64,000 nt of DNA from NCBI RefSeq assembly GCF_028715765.1, contig NZ_JAQURE010000007.1:1-64000 (forward strand), read 5' to 3'. The translations under genes and the position numbers were made by a program. The stretch is from Rhodoferax sp. (GTDB taxonomy: Bacteria; Pseudomonadota; Gammaproteobacteria; Burkholderiales; Burkholderiaceae_C). Positions 2,525 through 50,696 of the stretch are shown here, in pieces (position 1 is the first letter of the stretch; the number at the start of each line of letters is the position of its first letter). The notes beneath the pieces were generated by a model. The model did no database searches and was not told where the DNA came from. It saw only the letters and a program-made list of their open reading frames with translations.

Positions 2525-2530
2525 AAGTTC

Positions 2531-2590
2531 AGAGTGTTTTTGGCCTCTAGCGCATGTCAAATAAGCGTGAGTAGCTCTTTATAAGATAGC
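2531..2590 (+). repeat. Dispersed palindromic repeat, copy 1
   Basis: It carries the extended left flank AGAGTGTTTTTGGCCTCTAG and the right arm ATAAGCGTGAGTAGCT. The same left flank recurs in the copy inside murU at 30.1 kb. It lies between the convergent GGDEF/EAL and hemerythrin genes. Confidence 0.85.
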
Positions 2591-2600
2591 GTTGTGGCGC

Positions 2601-6918: not shown

Positions 6919-7970
6919 CCTACCTTGCCAAACCCCGGCTGCACCACCCCACGCTGACGCAAAACAAGGTGGGCTACACCCGGCGCGACTACGAAGGCCC
7001 GGTCTCTACGCTGTGCGCCGGTTGTGGCCACGACAGCATCAGCGCCGCCATCATCCAGGCCTGCTGGGAGCTTGACATTGAGCCGCACCGCGTGGCCAAG
7101 ATGTCTGGCATTGGTTGCAGCTCCAAAGCGCCCACCTACTTTTTAGGCGCCTCACACGGCTTTAACACCGTGCACGGGCGCATGCCCAGCGTGCTCACCG
7201 GGGCGAACCTGGCCAACCGCGAGCTGATGTATTTGGGGGTGTCGGGCGACGGCGACTCGGCCTCGATTGGTCTGGGGCAGTTTGCCAACGCCATGCGCCG
7301 CGGCGTCAACATGGCTTACATCGTGATGAACAACGGCGTCTATGGCCTGACCAAAGGGCAGTTTTCGCCCACCGCAGACCGTGGCTCCAAAAGCAAAAAA
7401 GGCGCCATCAACACCGACAGCCCGGTCGACCTGGTGGGCATTGCACTGCAACTGGGCGCCACCTATGTGGCGCGCAGTTTCTCGGGCGACAAAGCGCAGC
7501 TGGTGCCGCTCATCAAAGGCGCGCTGGCGCATGGCGGCGCGGCGTTCATAGACGTGATCAGCCCTTGTGTCACCTTCAACAACCACGGCGGCAGCACCAA
7601 GAGTTATGAATACATCCGCCAGCACGACGAGGCGGTGAGCGTGATTGACTTTGTGGCGCCTGGCTGCGAAATCACCACCAGTTACGCGCCTGGTGAAGTG
7701 GTGGAAGTGGCGCAGCATGACGGCTCGGTCTTGCGCATGCGCAAGCTGCACACTGACTACGACCCGACCGACCGTTACGCCGCGATGAGCTACATGAATG
7801 CGCACGCCGCGCGCGGCGAAGTGGTGACCGGCTTGCTCTACCTGGACCCGCTGCCCACCGACTTGCACACCTCGCTCAACACCTGCGCCCAGCCGCTCAA
7901 CAGCCTGGGTGTGCAGCAGTTGTGCCCAGGCTCAAAAGCGCTCGACAAGATCAACGCGGCACTGCGTTAA
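6915..7970 (+). CDS. korB: 2-oxoacid:acceptor oxidoreductase, beta (TPP-binding) subunit
   Basis: A 351-residue thiamine diphosphate-binding subunit. It shows the cluster-ligand region CAGCGHDS, the TPP/Mg motif GDGDSASIG followed by NNGVYGLTKGQ, and further cysteines (SPCVTFNNHGG). The length fits KorB-type subunits. ATG at 6915 overlaps the korA stop and has a GGAG site upstream. It closes a korC-korA-korB operon; the CBS-domain gene 84 bases downstream follows a dispersed repeat and may or may not be co-transcribed. Confidence 0.9.
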   Translation: MTYLAKPRLHHPTLTQNKVGYTRRDYEGPVSTLCAGCGHDSISAAIIQACWELDIEPHRVAKMSGIGCSSKAPTYFLGASHGFNTVHGRMPSVLTGANLANRELMYLGVSGDGDSASIGLGQFANAMRRGVNMAYIVMNNGVYGLTKGQFSPTADRGSKSKKGAINTDSPVDLVGIALQLGATYVARSFSGDKAQLVPLIKGALAHGGAAFIDVISPCVTFNNHGGSTKSYEYIRQHDEAVSVIDFVAPGCEITTSYAPGEVVEVAQHDGSVLRMRKLHTDYDPTDRYAAMSYMNAHAARGEVVTGLLYLDPLPTDLHTSLNTCAQPLNSLGVQQLCPGSKALDKINAALR

Positions 7971-7980
7971 GTTATACGTC

Positions 7981-8024
7981 AAAATGGCCTCTAGCGCTTA
8001 TGAATAGAGCGTGAGTAGCTATTG
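7981..8024 (+). repeat. Dispersed palindromic repeat, copy 2
   Basis: A near-consensus copy (TGGCCTCTAGCGCTTATGAA then TAGAGCGTGAGTAGCTATT) between korB and the CBS gene. Confidence 0.85.
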
Positions 8025-8053
8025 TTTTTAAGCTAAACCCACAGGAGCACAGC

Positions 8054-23264: not shown

Positions 23265-23340
23265 GCGGCTGTAGCTCAGTGGATAGAGTATTGGCCTCCG
23301 AAGCCAAGGGTCGTGGGTTCGATCCCCGCCAGCCGCACCA
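23265..23340 (+). tRNA. tRNA-Arg (anticodon CCG)
   Basis: A 76-base cloverleaf. The acceptor stem GCGGCTG pairs with CAGCCGC, then ACCA is encoded. The D arm is AGCTCAGTGGATAGAGT. The anticodon stem TTGGC/GCCAA encloses CTCCGAA, giving anticodon CCG. The T arm has GTGGGTTCGATCCCC-type sequence. It would read CGG codons. Confidence 0.97.
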
Positions 23341-28040: not shown

Positions 28041-29771
28041 TCAGCCTAGCGCCAGCTTGGCACCAGATTGCACCATGCGCTCAAACTCTGGCACTGTCAC
28101 TGGCGGGCTGAACAGATAGCCTTGCAGTTGATCACAGCCCAAGCCGCGTAAAAACGCCATTTGCTCGGGCGTTTCCACCCCCTCGGCCACCAGCTCTTGG
28201 CGCAACTGCTTGGCCAGGGTGACGATGGCGCGGGCAATGGCACAGTCGTTTTCATCGGCGGGTACGCCAATGACAAAAGCACGGTCAATTTTGAGCGTGG
28301 TGATCGGAAATTTCTTGAGGTATGACAGGCTGGAGTAGCCCGTGCCAAAGTCGTCCATCGACAGCGCCAGCCCCATGGCCACCAGCTCGTTCATGATGCT
28401 GATCACGCCTTCTGCCCCACGCACCAGCAGGCTCTCGGTGATCTCAAGTTGCAAAAGTTTGGGCGACAACTGGTGGCGCTCAAGCACGGCCCACAGCCGC
28501 TGTGGCAACAAGCGGTCAAACTGGCGGGCAGATAAATTGACGGCAATGGGGGGCATGTGCAGCCCCGCGTCTTGCCAGGCGCGCAGCTGGCGGCAGGCCT
28601 CGTCAAGCACCCAGCTGCCAATGTCCAAAATCAGCCCGGTTTCTTCGGCCACCGGGATGAACTTGGCTGGCGACACCATGCCGTTGACCGGATGGCGCCA
28701 GCGGATCAAGGCCTCTGCGCCCACAATCTCGCCGGTGTGCAGACTCACTTTGGGCTGGTAATACAGCACCAGTTGCTGCGCCACCAGGGCGTGCCGCAGC
28801 TCGCCTTCAAGCTGCCATTTTTCTTTGGCGCGCTGGTTCATCTCGGCGCTGTAAAACAGGTAGCCAGAGGATTCTTCGGCTTTCATGCGGTTCACCGCCA
28901 CATCGGCACAGCGCAGCAGTGTGGCCACGTCTTGGGCGTCGTCTGGAAACACGGCTATGCCCACGTTCACGCCCACATGCACCAGTTGGCCGGCCAGCTG
29001 AAACGCCTCATCCATGGCAGACAGCAGCTTTTTGGCCACAATGCCAGCGTGCTCGCGTTGCTCCAGGTTCAGCAACGCCACCACAAATTGGTCGGCTCCC
29101 ACTTTGGCCAGCACATCGGCACTGCGCAGTGTCAGGCGAAAACGCTGGCTGATGAGTTTCAGCAACTCGTCTGCCACATCCAGCCCCAACGAGTCACTGA
29201 TGGTGCTCAGGCGCTCCAAATCCACCATCAAAATCGCGCCCACCTGCTGCGTCCGTTTGGAGCTGGCCAGCGCCACCTCAGTGAGCTGAATAAAGTGGCT
29301 GCGGTTGGGCAGCCCGGTCAAGTCATCAAAATTGGCCAGCCGCACAATCCGCGCCTGCGCCTCATGCAGCACGCTGATGTCTGAAAAAATTGAAAACGCG
29401 TGGGTAATGTTTCCCGTAGCATCCCGCACCACGCTGATCGACACGTTTTGCGGAAACAGTTCGCCGTTTTTGCGCCGACCAATGATTTCCCCTTGCCAGG
29501 GCCCTGCGCCAGCCATGGAGGCGGTCACTTTGGCGCGAAACTCTGCATCGTGAACGCCTGAGCGCAGCAAGTCGGTGGTCTGACCGATGGCCTCATCAAA
29601 GCTGTAGCCGGTGATTTTGCTGAAGGCCGCGTTGACCGACACAATGTGCTCGTGCGCGTCTGTGATCAAAATGCCTTGGTCGCTGTCGTTGATGATGCGC
29701 GAATGCAGCCGCTGCAGCTCAAGGGGAGAGAGCTCTGGCGGTGTCTGGCGGGGCAGTAACTGGGCGGTCAT
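28041..29771 (-). CDS. PAS-(degenerate GGDEF)-EAL protein, probable c-di-GMP phosphodiesterase
   Basis: A 576-residue soluble protein: PAS with PAC (residues about 20-145), GGDEF-like (150-310) and EAL (320-565). The cyclase signature is decayed: GADQF replaces GGDEF, and the metal-binding segment reads MVDLERLS instead of VDLDRFK. The domain is therefore likely to be non-catalytic, possibly GTP-sensing. The EAL domain keeps EALIRW, DDFGTGYSS, LKID and VAEGVE, so it should hydrolyse c-di-GMP. It diverges from murU. Confidence 0.9.
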   Translation of the reverse strand: MTAQLLPRQTPPELSPLELQRLHSRIINDSDQGILITDAHEHIVSVNAAFSKITGYSFDEAIGQTTDLLRSGVHDAEFRAKVTASMAGAGPWQGEIIGRRKNGELFPQNVSISVVRDATGNITHAFSIFSDISVLHEAQARIVRLANFDDLTGLPNRSHFIQLTEVALASSKRTQQVGAILMVDLERLSTISDSLGLDVADELLKLISQRFRLTLRSADVLAKVGADQFVVALLNLEQREHAGIVAKKLLSAMDEAFQLAGQLVHVGVNVGIAVFPDDAQDVATLLRCADVAVNRMKAEESSGYLFYSAEMNQRAKEKWQLEGELRHALVAQQLVLYYQPKVSLHTGEIVGAEALIRWRHPVNGMVSPAKFIPVAEETGLILDIGSWVLDEACRQLRAWQDAGLHMPPIAVNLSARQFDRLLPQRLWAVLERHQLSPKLLQLEITESLLVRGAEGVISIMNELVAMGLALSMDDFGTGYSSLSYLKKFPITTLKIDRAFVIGVPADENDCAIARAIVTLAKQLRQELVAEGVETPEQMAFLRGLGCDQLQGYLFSPPVTVPEFERMVQSGAKLALG

Positions 29772-29905
29772 GTCAAACCCTTTGAATGGCGGTTGTTGTC
29801 ATGATAACGGGACACAGCCGCCCGCCACCCGCAGGTCAATGGCGCTATGCTTATCTACCCTGTTACACCCTAGCTGCAACCTTGTCACACCCTGCCCCAC
29901 CCCCA

Positions 29906-30691
29906 TTGCCACTGGCCAGCGCCATGCTGCTGGCTGCTGGCCGCGGCGAGCGCATGCGCCCGCTGACCGACACCTGCCCCAAGCCCTTGCTGGTGGTGCA
30001 AGGCAAGCCGCTGATGCAGTGGCACCTGGAAGCCTTGGCGCGCGCTGGCTGCCCGCGTGTGGTGGTCAACACCGCGTGGCTGGCAGACAGCATTGAGCAC
30101 AAATTTAAGAGTGTTTTTGGCCTCTATAGCTTATCAAATAAGCGTGAGCAGCTATTGAATGCAGAGCATTTATTGCACCTTCACTACTCTTCTGAAGGGC
30201 GCGACTTTGGCGCAGCGCTAGAAACAGCGGGCGGCATTGCACGCGCTTTGCCGCATTTGGGCGACGTGTTTTGGCTGTTGGCGGGCGACGTGTTCACCCC
30301 TGGTTTTGACTTTGCCCCGCACGCGTTGGCGCGCTTGGCCGCCAGTGACAAACTGGCGCATCTGTGGCTGGTGCCCAACCCGCCGCACAACCCAGGGGGT
30401 GACTTTGGCTTGCAACCCAGCGCAGACGGCAGCCACGCGCTGGCACTGAACCTGCCCTTTGATAGCCGTCAAGCGCGCTACACCTATTCCACCATCGGGG
30501 TGTTTCGGCGTGCGTTGTTTGAGCCCCCTTGGTGCGACATTGCGCCAGGCAACCCGCTGGGCGTCAAAGCCCCACTGGCACCGCTGCTGCGCCGCGCCAT
30601 GGACAATGCGTTGGTCACTGCCGAGCTCTACACCGGCTCCTGGACTGACGTGGGCACGCCGCAGCGCCTGGCAGAGCTCAACGCCGCTTGA
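29906..30691 (+). CDS. murU: N-acetylmuramate-1-phosphate uridylyltransferase-like (MurU) with embedded repeat
   Basis: A nucleotidyltransferase with the signature LLAAGRGERMRPLTDTCPKPLL, LAGDVFTPGFD and TGSWTDVGTPQRL (GxWxDxGT). Together these fit MurU of the peptidoglycan recycling bypass; a related sugar-1-P transferase remains possible. The stretch KSVFGLYSLSNKREQLLN, between the SIEHKF and EHLLHLHYS segments, is encoded by a copy of the dispersed repeat lying in frame. The start is unsure. TTG at 29906 gives the usual N-terminus; ATG at 29924 is too short; ATG at 29786 would add 40 atypical residues. Confidence 0.82.
   Translation: MPLASAMLLAAGRGERMRPLTDTCPKPLLVVQGKPLMQWHLEALARAGCPRVVVNTAWLADSIEHKFKSVFGLYSLSNKREQLLNAEHLLHLHYSSEGRDFGAALETAGGIARALPHLGDVFWLLAGDVFTPGFDFAPHALARLAASDKLAHLWLVPNPPHNPGGDFGLQPSADGSHALALNLPFDSRQARYTYSTIGVFRRALFEPPWCDIAPGNPLGVKAPLAPLLRRAMDNALVTAELYTGSWTDVGTPQRLAELNAA
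30101..30160 (+). repeat. Dispersed palindromic repeat, copy 7, inside murU
   Basis: AGAGTGTTTTTGGCCTCTAT then ATCAAATAAGCGTGAGCAGC; nearly identical to copy 1 over 45 bases. The two TAG triplets of the consensus that would fall in the murU frame read TAT and CAG here, so the frame stays open. Confidence 0.88.
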
Positions 30692-49189: not shown

Positions 49190-49639
49190 ATGTCCAAAGC
49201 CAAAAAAATTGCAGCCACCGTGGGCGGCTCAGCCGACGAAATTGAGGCAAGTTTCTACGAAGCTTTGCAAAAGGGCGACCTTGAGCGCCTGATGGCCTGT
49301 TGGGCAGACGAAGACGAAGTGGTCTGCATTCACCCTGGCGGCCCTCGCTTGGTGGGGCTGGGGGTGATTCGTGCCGCGTTTGAGTCGATGTTCAGCAACG
49401 CCAGTTTGCGCATCAGCGCCCAAGACGTGCGCAAGATTGAAGCCCTGGCCAGCAGCGTGCACAGCGTGCGTGAGCGCATTGAAATCCTCACCCCCGAAGG
49501 CCCGGTGGATGCTTTTGTGATGGCCACCAACGTCTACCACAAGACCGCCCAGGGGTGGCGCCTGGTGGCGCACCATGCCAGCCAAGGCAGCCCGCGTGAG
49601 ACTGAAGACATCACCGAAAAACCGCCTGTGCTGCATTGA
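49190..49639 (+). CDS. SnoaL-like/NTF2-fold protein
   Basis: A 149-residue protein with the NTF2-like fold pattern (EIEASFYEALQKGDLERLMA, CIHPGGPRLVGLGVIRAAFE, VYHKTAQGWRLVAHHAS). The start at MSKAKKIAAT is chosen; the in-frame extension to 49076 is not fold-like. Related proteins include ketosteroid isomerase-like and YybH enzymes; activity unknown. Confidence 0.82.
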   Translation: MSKAKKIAATVGGSADEIEASFYEALQKGDLERLMACWADEDEVVCIHPGGPRLVGLGVIRAAFESMFSNASLRISAQDVRKIEALASSVHSVRERIEILTPEGPVDAFVMATNVYHKTAQGWRLVAHHASQGSPRETEDITEKPPVLH

Positions 49640-49690
49640 TGGTCAAAAAATGCCTCTCGTGCCTGTCAATCAAGCGCAATCAGCTCCAAA
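49640..49690 (+). repeat. Dispersed palindromic repeat, copy 10 (diverged), at the yheT start
   Basis: TCAAAAAATGCCTCTCGTGC then CTGTCAATCAAGCGCAATCA and GCT. It aligns with the consensus codon by codon in the yheT frame, with the consensus TGA reading CAA. Confidence 0.6.
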
Positions 49691-50696
49691 AGTTATAGCA
49701 CCTGGCTGGTTGCCAGGTGGTCATGCACAGACCATTTGGCCAGCGTTGCGGGTGCGGCACAGCTGCCCTGCAGCGCTGGCTGCCATTCGCTACGAGCGCC
49801 AGCGCTGGCCTACGCCAGATGGCGACTTTGTGGATGTGGACTGGCTCACCCTTAGCCCACGCCCCATGCAAGCGCCGCTACTGGTGCTGTTTCATGGGTT
49901 AGAGGGGTCGTCACGCAGCCACTACGCACTGGCATTTGCGCGCGTGGCGCACGATTGCGGTCTGAACTTTGCAGTGCCGCACTTTCGTGGCTGCAGTGGC
50001 CAGATCAACCTGGCCCCGCGTGCCTACCATTCCGGTGATTTTGAAGAAGTGGGGTGGCTGCTGTCGCGCTTGCGCCAGCACACGACGCGCCCTTTGTGGG
50101 TGGTGGGCGTGTCTTTGGGGGGCAACGTGCTGCTGCGCTGGGCGCAAGAGGCAGGCAGCCAAGCGCTGCAGCTTGCCAGCGCCGTTGCCAGTGTGTCCGC
50201 CCCGTTGGACTTGACGGCCAGCGGTCAGGCCATGGGGCTGGGATTTAACCGGTGGGTCTACACCCGCATGTTTTTGCGCAGCATGAAACCCAAAGCGCTG
50301 CAAAAGCTGGCGCAACACCCAGGGCTGTTTCAAGTGCAAGACTTGCTCAAGGCGCGCACGCTGTATGACTTTGACAACGTCTTCACCGCGCCACTTCATG
50401 GCTTTCAAAACACGCAAGACTATTGGCAGCGTGCATCTGCTCTGCCACACCTGCACCGGCTGCAGCTGCCCAGCCTGGTGGTGAATGCGCAAAATGATCC
50501 GTTTGTTCCTGCGGCCAGTCTGCCCCACGCCCACCAGGTCAGCCGCCATGTCACGCTGTGGCAACCCCGCCAGGGTGGCCATGTGGGGTTTGCACAAGCA
50601 CCGTGGCCGGGACAGATTCAAGCCTTGCCACAAGCCGTGGTGGCCTGGCTGGCGCAGCAGGCCAACTTCAACCTCAAAGGATGCTCAGATGGATGA
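49650..50696 (+). CDS. yheT: YheT family alpha/beta hydrolase
   Basis: A 348-residue hydrolase. Landmarks: PGWLPGGHAQTIWPALR, LVLFHGLEGSSRSHYA (oxyanion hole), NFAVPHFRGCSG, nucleophile Ser in VGVSLGGNVLLRW, and acid/His in NAQNDPFVP and GGHVGF. The first dozen residues (MPLVPVNQAQSA) are encoded by a diverged dispersed repeat. The physiological ester is unknown. Confidence 0.88.
   Translation: MPLVPVNQAQSAPKVIAPGWLPGGHAQTIWPALRVRHSCPAALAAIRYERQRWPTPDGDFVDVDWLTLSPRPMQAPLLVLFHGLEGSSRSHYALAFARVAHDCGLNFAVPHFRGCSGQINLAPRAYHSGDFEEVGWLLSRLRQHTTRPLWVVGVSLGGNVLLRWAQEAGSQALQLASAVASVSAPLDLTASGQAMGLGFNRWVYTRMFLRSMKPKALQKLAQHPGLFQVQDLLKARTLYDFDNVFTAPLHGFQNTQDYWQRASALPHLHRLQLPSLVVNAQNDPFVPAASLPHAHQVSRHVTLWQPRQGGHVGFAQAPWPGQIQALPQAVVAWLAQQANFNLKGCSDG

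Follow-up and report, generated by a model that had tools for sequence, protein, structure and literature searches.

A repeat in frame within murU

In a 64-kb window of a Rhodoferax sp. genome (the whole stretch of DNA analyzed, positions 1 to 64,000 of contig NZ_JAQURE010000007.1), the gene for MurU carries, in frame, a copy of a repeat that is dispersed through the same genome. Our main reading, which we hold to be very probable, is that this ∼70-bp quasi-palindromic repeat of the Comamonadaceae entered a helix-strand loop of murU once and has been kept there as a tolerated loop. The gene and its insert are as follows.

29924..30691, + strand: murU (N-acetylmuramate alpha-1-phosphate uridylyltransferase), the insert-bearing gene, assigned by ORF, family, sequence, and fold
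30101..30169, + strand: in-frame repeat copy, residues 60 to 82 counted from 29924 (KFKSVFGLYSLSNKREQLLNAEH); profile match at 30102-30168

The murU ORF is uninterrupted throughout and the gene is intact; since the frame stays open back to an ATG at 29786, the position of its true start is uncertain. The NCBIfam MurU model matches the product with an E value of 5.3e−65 and 219.4 bits, below the curated cutoff of 250, and MurU of P. putida resembles the product in both sequence and fold. At this score, an automatic pipeline might leave the protein unnamed. Upstream of murU, on the opposite strand (28041-29771), lies a 576-aa ORF that we take, by motif, to be GGDEF/EAL-like.

An HMM of the repeat, built from 104 aligned rows of this genome with the murU row excluded, matches window positions 30102-30168 at 49.1 bits (E value of 2.1e−14). 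An earlier note on this DNA had placed a repeat in frame within murU, and the full-length copy in an open frame bears this out. The extent given there, 30101-30160, was too short, as the repeat spans about 30101-30168. The near identity to a copy at 2.5 kb that the note had described over 45 bases proved to be 86% over 56 bp, and the copy closest to the murU insert is on contig C1 (90% over 52 bp).

The repeat family in the Rhodoferax sp. genome

A pattern search of the 3.41-Mb genome gave 222 repeat matches, near balance between the strands (107 versus 115), and the reversed pattern used as a control gave none. Double counting affects about 1 match in 100, one palindromic place having been found on both strands among 100 fetched matches. 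The 100 bp around the murU site had 40 repeat matches in the genome (40 of 90 candidates scored). The aligned set of 105 rows drawn from the 222 matches represents 102 distinct places (L185, L218, and L221 are both-strand duplicates); the sample is nonrandom, being made up of the 30 loci most like murU and 60 of 100 listed places. The repeat is ∼70 bp long. Its borders are AT-rich, and its core, strongly conserved among free copies, is quasi-palindromic; the majority sequence is GGCCTCTAGCGCTTATGAAATAAGCGTAAGCAGCTATT. Twelve profile matches were found in the window, the murU copy included. The others are as follows.

2525..2591, + strand: dispersed copy named in the earlier note, 50.5 bits, past the stop of the upstream ORF
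7970..8031, + strand: dispersed copy, 53.9 bits
10209..10261, − strand: dispersed copy, 46.4 bits
17766..17831, + strand: dispersed copy, 50.7 bits
20717..20744, + strand: partial copy, 25.8 bits
22783..22842, + strand: dispersed copy, 28.1 bits
33762..33824, + strand: dispersed copy, 35.2 bits
37278..37338, + strand: dispersed copy, 57.8 bits, the best in the window
49638..49700, + strand: diverged copy, 23.8 bits
51211..51276, − strand: dispersed copy, 38.9 bits
52485..52547, + strand: diverged copy, 18.9 bits, the weakest match

Ten of the 12 window copies are on the + strand, against the near-balanced split of the whole genome. A search of the window against Rfam at the gathering score returned no family for the repeat, the sole match being a tRNA at 23265-23337. 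The literature searched (CC-licensed PMC papers) held no description of the repeat family, and a text search with a piece of its sequence returned unrelated papers only. Described nowhere in this literature, the family is apparently new, yet it is like Rickettsia palindromic elements (RPEs) or intragenic REPs in kind.

The frame used in murU is one that the family closes

When the 105 rows were read in the murU frame, at least one stop was present in all 104 rows other than murU (101 distinct places), and none was present in murU. The counts of open rows for the remaining five frames are 29, 21, 19, 5, and 2 of 105. In the murU frame, TAG is frequent in the family at three positions.

30125..30127, + strand: TAT replacing the family TAG at +5 (TAG in 95 of 105 rows)
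30149..30151, + strand: CAG at +29, the commonest family state (TAG in 45 of 105 rows)
30164..30166, + strand: GAG at +44, a frequent TAG position of the family (TAG in 42 of 105 rows)

The earlier note had held that two consensus stops, both TAG, were changed in murU to TAT and CAG. This is true of the first. The second is no change, because CAG is the commonest state of the family at +29, where the first base is C in 49, T in 45, A in 9, and G in 1 of 104 rows. The third frequent stop, at +44, had been overlooked. Among the loops read, TAT at the first stop is particular to this genome, relatives having mostly CAG or AAG. The murU frame may have become readable through the landing of a stop-poor variant or through later mutation of the stops; free copies with CAG at the first stop exist, as in 6 of 28 tallied in R. 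antarcticus. Two proteins in other genomes have what appear to be in-frame copies read as in murU, at L158 (index ∼1500, reverse strand; NGLQPLPNKREQLSK) and at L406 (index ∼1500; IGLQSLSGKRKQLSN), so this frame is usable elsewhere. The murU insert is notable for using a frame that the repeat family itself closes and for its retention across genera.

The insert is weakly constrained and the modeled fold is kept

Among 19 hand-picked, partly overlapping pairs, dN/dS was 0.80 for the insert versus 0.18 for the rest of murU. By these ratios, murU outside the insert is under purifying selection, and the insert hardly so, drifting in a near-neutral manner. The structural check proposed in the earlier note was run with AlphaFold. 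The model (pLDDT of 88.1, pTM of 0.87) keeps the MurU fold and places insert residues 60 to 82 between a helix (54 to 61) and a strand (84 to 89), as an excursion of lower confidence (mean of 60 for residues 71 to 80). The least confident stretch of the model, residues 94 to 97, is another loop outside the insert. We read the insert as a surface excursion that the protein tolerates and that selection hardly constrains.

The sequence might instead be kept for a role as nucleic acid, as a protein-binding site or an mRNA hairpin, with its translation incidental. We consider this quite unlikely. Strong conservation of the core in free copies would fit such a role, as would the murU insert of one Comamonadaceae MAG (L061:2178-2248), a near-perfect hairpin with changes relative to the family on both arms and a single-strand folding z score of −3.60 against shuffled sequences. 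However, the other three of the four folded copies were no better than shuffles (z of −0.84 for the murU copy of this genome, 0.67 for the 2.5-kb copy, and 1.05 for the R. antarcticus insert), many murU inserts are decayed, and for 2 of the 8 stem pairs inspected, pairing is kept in only about half of the copies of this genome. Since its own murU copy folds no better than shuffles, the palindrome is imperfect. The L061 insert is a better palindrome than the copies of the Rhodoferax sp. genome; template-switch correction of quasi-palindromes would produce such a hairpin.

Distribution and age of the murU insertion

Comparison with relatives for a repeat-free allele, also proposed earlier, found insert-free murU in other families of the order. 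Outside the Comamonadaceae, the murU loop was uniformly 63 nt long in all 25 loci read (the best 25 loci among 195 such genomes searched), and typically reads LGDGSRFG at the place of the insert, in keeping with the earlier claim that the insert replaces a usual short loop. The outgroup survey comprised 29 loci read out of 200 genomes searched. Within the Comamonadaceae, 48 of 85 distinct murU loops scored above 4 bits with a repeat profile made without murU. The controls were shuffled loops (maximum of 3.7 bits in 2,120) and downstream pieces (maximum of 0.4 bits in 424). The murU loop varies freely in length, from 45 to 123 nt, as might be expected if the insert were an ordinary variable loop with a chance resemblance to the repeat. 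Against the 3.7 bits reached by shuffled loops, the 49.1 bits of the murU copy, together with the presence of the repeat at many other places, make the chance of this negligible.

Scoring loops were found in Rhodoferax, Acidovorax (L089, L090, L100), Extensimonas, Hylemonella, and Polaromonas (L113, L118, L131), in MAGs titled Rubrivivax and Burkholderiales, and in a further genus (L423, 15.2 bits). The repeat reading frame is constant across the scoring loops, and the profile-to-loop offset is single in nearly all that are full length. The profile found no repeat in the murU loops of Tepidimonas, Hydrogenophaga L117, and Ramlibacter; four full-length loops (L063, L103, L105, L114) also lack a score, and in Variovorax L124 and some others a trace of the repeat is seen by eye only, unscored by the profile. 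In one set of 80 named loci, all except L076, L077, L081, and L115 were parsed.

The earlier note had named relatives with the same residues and no repeat family as evidence against its reading. To the letter, Polaromonas provides such relatives, with 0 to 2 repeat copies in each of the four genomes so titled (L096, L113, L118, L123) among the 50 genomes, of 59 selected, in which copies were counted. Nevertheless, the profile still recognizes repeat DNA in three Polaromonas loops (L113, 14.6 bits; L118, 13.1 bits; L131, 11.6 bits), and we therefore read these inserts as fossils; L123 scores −1.3 bits, and the loop of L096 is short. In the murU tree, ten short-loop rows (54 or 84 nt) group as a single clade (SH-aLRT of 99) nested among insert bearers, and the eight genomes searched from it hold 0 to 4 repeat copies. 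This clade reads as a loss of the insert.

Several independent insertions into the same permissive loop, in the same frame but in different genera, would also place the repeat in murU of these lineages. The insert is patchy on the murU tree, where 18 label changes are needed, at least 5 of them forced by starred branches, and this count is due in part to full-length loops that have decayed below the threshold; the tree, of a single gene, has little resolution, with 34 of its 74 inner branches open. The fresh-looking inserts of this genome, R. antarcticus, and an Acidovorax MAG also suit repeated insertion, and a MiaA loop shows that a second repeat can be accommodated. Independent events would, however, have to account for the one frame and offset of nearly all full-length scoring loops, though other frames are more often open in free copies, and for the non-consensus residues that relatives have in common at the stop positions. 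We therefore regard independent insertion as unlikely. A single insertion, rather than several, would account for murU: the repeat would have entered the loop before Rhodoferax, Acidovorax, Polaromonas, and their relatives diverged, and the slow decay or loss apparent in the pattern of loops would have followed. By comparison of these loops, the murU insertion appears to be old, not recent.

Resemblance of the murU insert to the dispersed copies

The murU insert of this genome has a mean identity of 0.672 to the dispersed copies of its own genome, at a rank of 0.60, like a typical free copy. Of the other distinct orthologous inserts, 53 in number and averaging 0.52, none is as close to these copies (alignment of 54 of the 80 named loci). 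When five murU inserts were scored with profiles from equal-sized samples, the profile of the own genome was best in 200 of 200 subsamples for three (this genome, R. antarcticus, and the Acidovorax MAG) and in 0 of 200 for the other two, which are more decayed. The concerted pattern was complete with three genomes and held for three of five after widening. These comparisons are only suggestive of refreshment of the murU copy from dispersed copies. That the insert is kept in concert with them by ectopic gene conversion, with selection vetoing in-frame stops, is a tentative proposal that we put forward with some doubt. If it is true, the insert is evolving as one more copy of a selfish repeat family while housed in a living enzyme.

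Repeat copies in other proteins

About 19 of the 102 sampled places are in-frame copies in genes with coding flanks, mostly in frames other than that of murU; this count omits L191 (a 90-aa ORF past the Y1 transposase gene) and includes MiaA L022 (upstream flank score of −0.17). Family models span the repeat in ten proteins besides MurU: AroE, enoyl-CoA hydratase, CobU, heptosyltransferase I, PurL, WaaA, RecC, a photolyase-related protein, a DUF6537 protein, and, weakly (3.3e−5), a PD-(D/E)XK nuclease. MiaA and RlmL each match their family model in two stretches. The insert peptides PLALMNKAQAAIN and SASSPYxISANSY recur, from two frames, and the reverse strand yields others. Genes for DNA repair or restriction are frequent among those with in-frame copies (L181, L231, L218, L229, L175, L216, L206), a set with a PD-(D/E)XK nuclease, RecC, a UvrD-like helicase, a photolyase-related protein, and MmeI- and Eco57I-type methylases.

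Orthologues of WaaA, PurL, MiaA, and RlmL were assessed by eye at 30 loci each. The WaaA insert is absent in L246, L251, and L259, and L257 has an unrelated loop. PurL has a recognizable loop in about 22 of 30 loci, the others being diverged or three residues shorter. MiaA of four species (L292 to L295) has two adjacent repeat-like stretches in one loop, other species having one or none. RlmL has the insert in about ten loci, that of this genome included, and a clean short allele in L335, L337, L339, and L350, so that insert-free alleles occur within the genus. In Acidovorax defluvii (44 rows), 12 of the listed ORFs traverse the repeat. Three are convincing by eye; one is PurL, and the other two are presumably a MoeA-like protein and an oxidoreductase-like protein.

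The PurL of A. defluvii carries the repeat at the same site as in Rhodoferax, which bears on whether an insert-bearing murU was transferred between genera, the insertion then being younger than the genus split. The open branches of the murU tree would leave room for such an event, but the shared PurL site means that transfer would be needed more than once, and we judge it very unlikely. Under the single old insertion that we favor, the repeat would have moved as a unit by some route. Frame-breaking insertions would have been purged and readable ones retained in loops, where their survival is seen as a pattern, and the insert would have no function of its own.

Relation to known repeats and a candidate mobilizer

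Descriptions of RPEs present them as dispersed repeats of ∼150 bp that are tolerated in frame in unrelated proteins (PMC10969869). The present repeat is like them in being dispersed, in frame within unrelated proteins, and tolerated; as far as description allows comparison, it differs in its length (∼70 bp), its host (Comamonadaceae rather than obligate intracellular bacteria), and its use of several frames. The earlier note had likened the murU copy to an RPE, and insert-free alleles, the dN/dS contrast, the kept modeled fold, and copies in other enzymes support the likeness. A dispersed family, in-frame copies in unrelated proteins, and insert-free orthologues were all found, as for an RPE-like protein-invading repeat. 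By analogy, the repeat appears RPE-like in behavior, which does not in itself make it an RPE. We infer that it is selfish and mobile.

The GTAG/CGTC REPs described by Di Nocera and colleagues (2013, PMC3733652) are mostly intergenic palindromes, some lying in ORFs that include recBCD, a UvrD helicase, and a photoreactivating enzyme. Copies of the present repeat in RecC, a UvrD-like helicase, and a photolyase-related protein resemble these, and the repair and restriction bias noted above echoes the bias reported for intragenic REPs. The GTAG/CGTC tag is absent from the present consensus, GTAG occurring solely when the less common T is present at +29, and the main text of PMC3733652 makes no mention of Rhodoferax, Acidovorax, or Polaromonas. 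Enterobacterial RU elements, described as small mobile sequences inside genes (PMC2759123), share intragenic copies with the present repeat and differ in size (103 to 168 bp) and host.

BRE, known from Betaproteobacteria, Rhodoferax and Acidovorax among them, is likewise a short repeat with some copies in coding sequences; it is described as ∼90 bp long, with 69% GC in Bordetella and up to 29 copies per genome, R. ferrireducens T118 having 4 (PMC3110155). For the present repeat, the two genomes that bear the title R. ferrireducens (L082, L086) give 63 to 134 matches. Compared by description rather than sequence, its length of ∼70 bp, AT-rich borders, and copy numbers led us to reject identity with BRE.

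As small dispersed quasi-palindromes, the copies also recall REPINs, and the genome has a Y1 transposase gene with a copy nearby, which made a RAYT a candidate mobilizer. This sole Y1 gene has one repeat copy, at its 3′ end. The candidate found no support: Y1 genes are present in 44 of 50 genomes regardless of repeat copy number, a copy lies close to only 3 of 30 Y1 loci elsewhere, and the GTAG/CGTC tag is lacking.

Significance

Rickettsia is the best-known setting for the in-frame invasion of proteins by palindromic repeats. The present case comes from an environmental lineage that has cultured members, and in some freshwater bacteria of this lineage the repeat numbers hundreds of copies. 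Annotation is touched as well, in that an insert-bearing MurU falls below the curated cutoff of its family. The enzymes affected include the core enzymes PurL, WaaA, MiaA, RlmL, and MurU, and there are both alleles and genomes with and without the repeat. The tolerance and domestication of selfish DNA by proteins, and the fading of inserts after loss of the repeat family, are therefore testable in this lineage.
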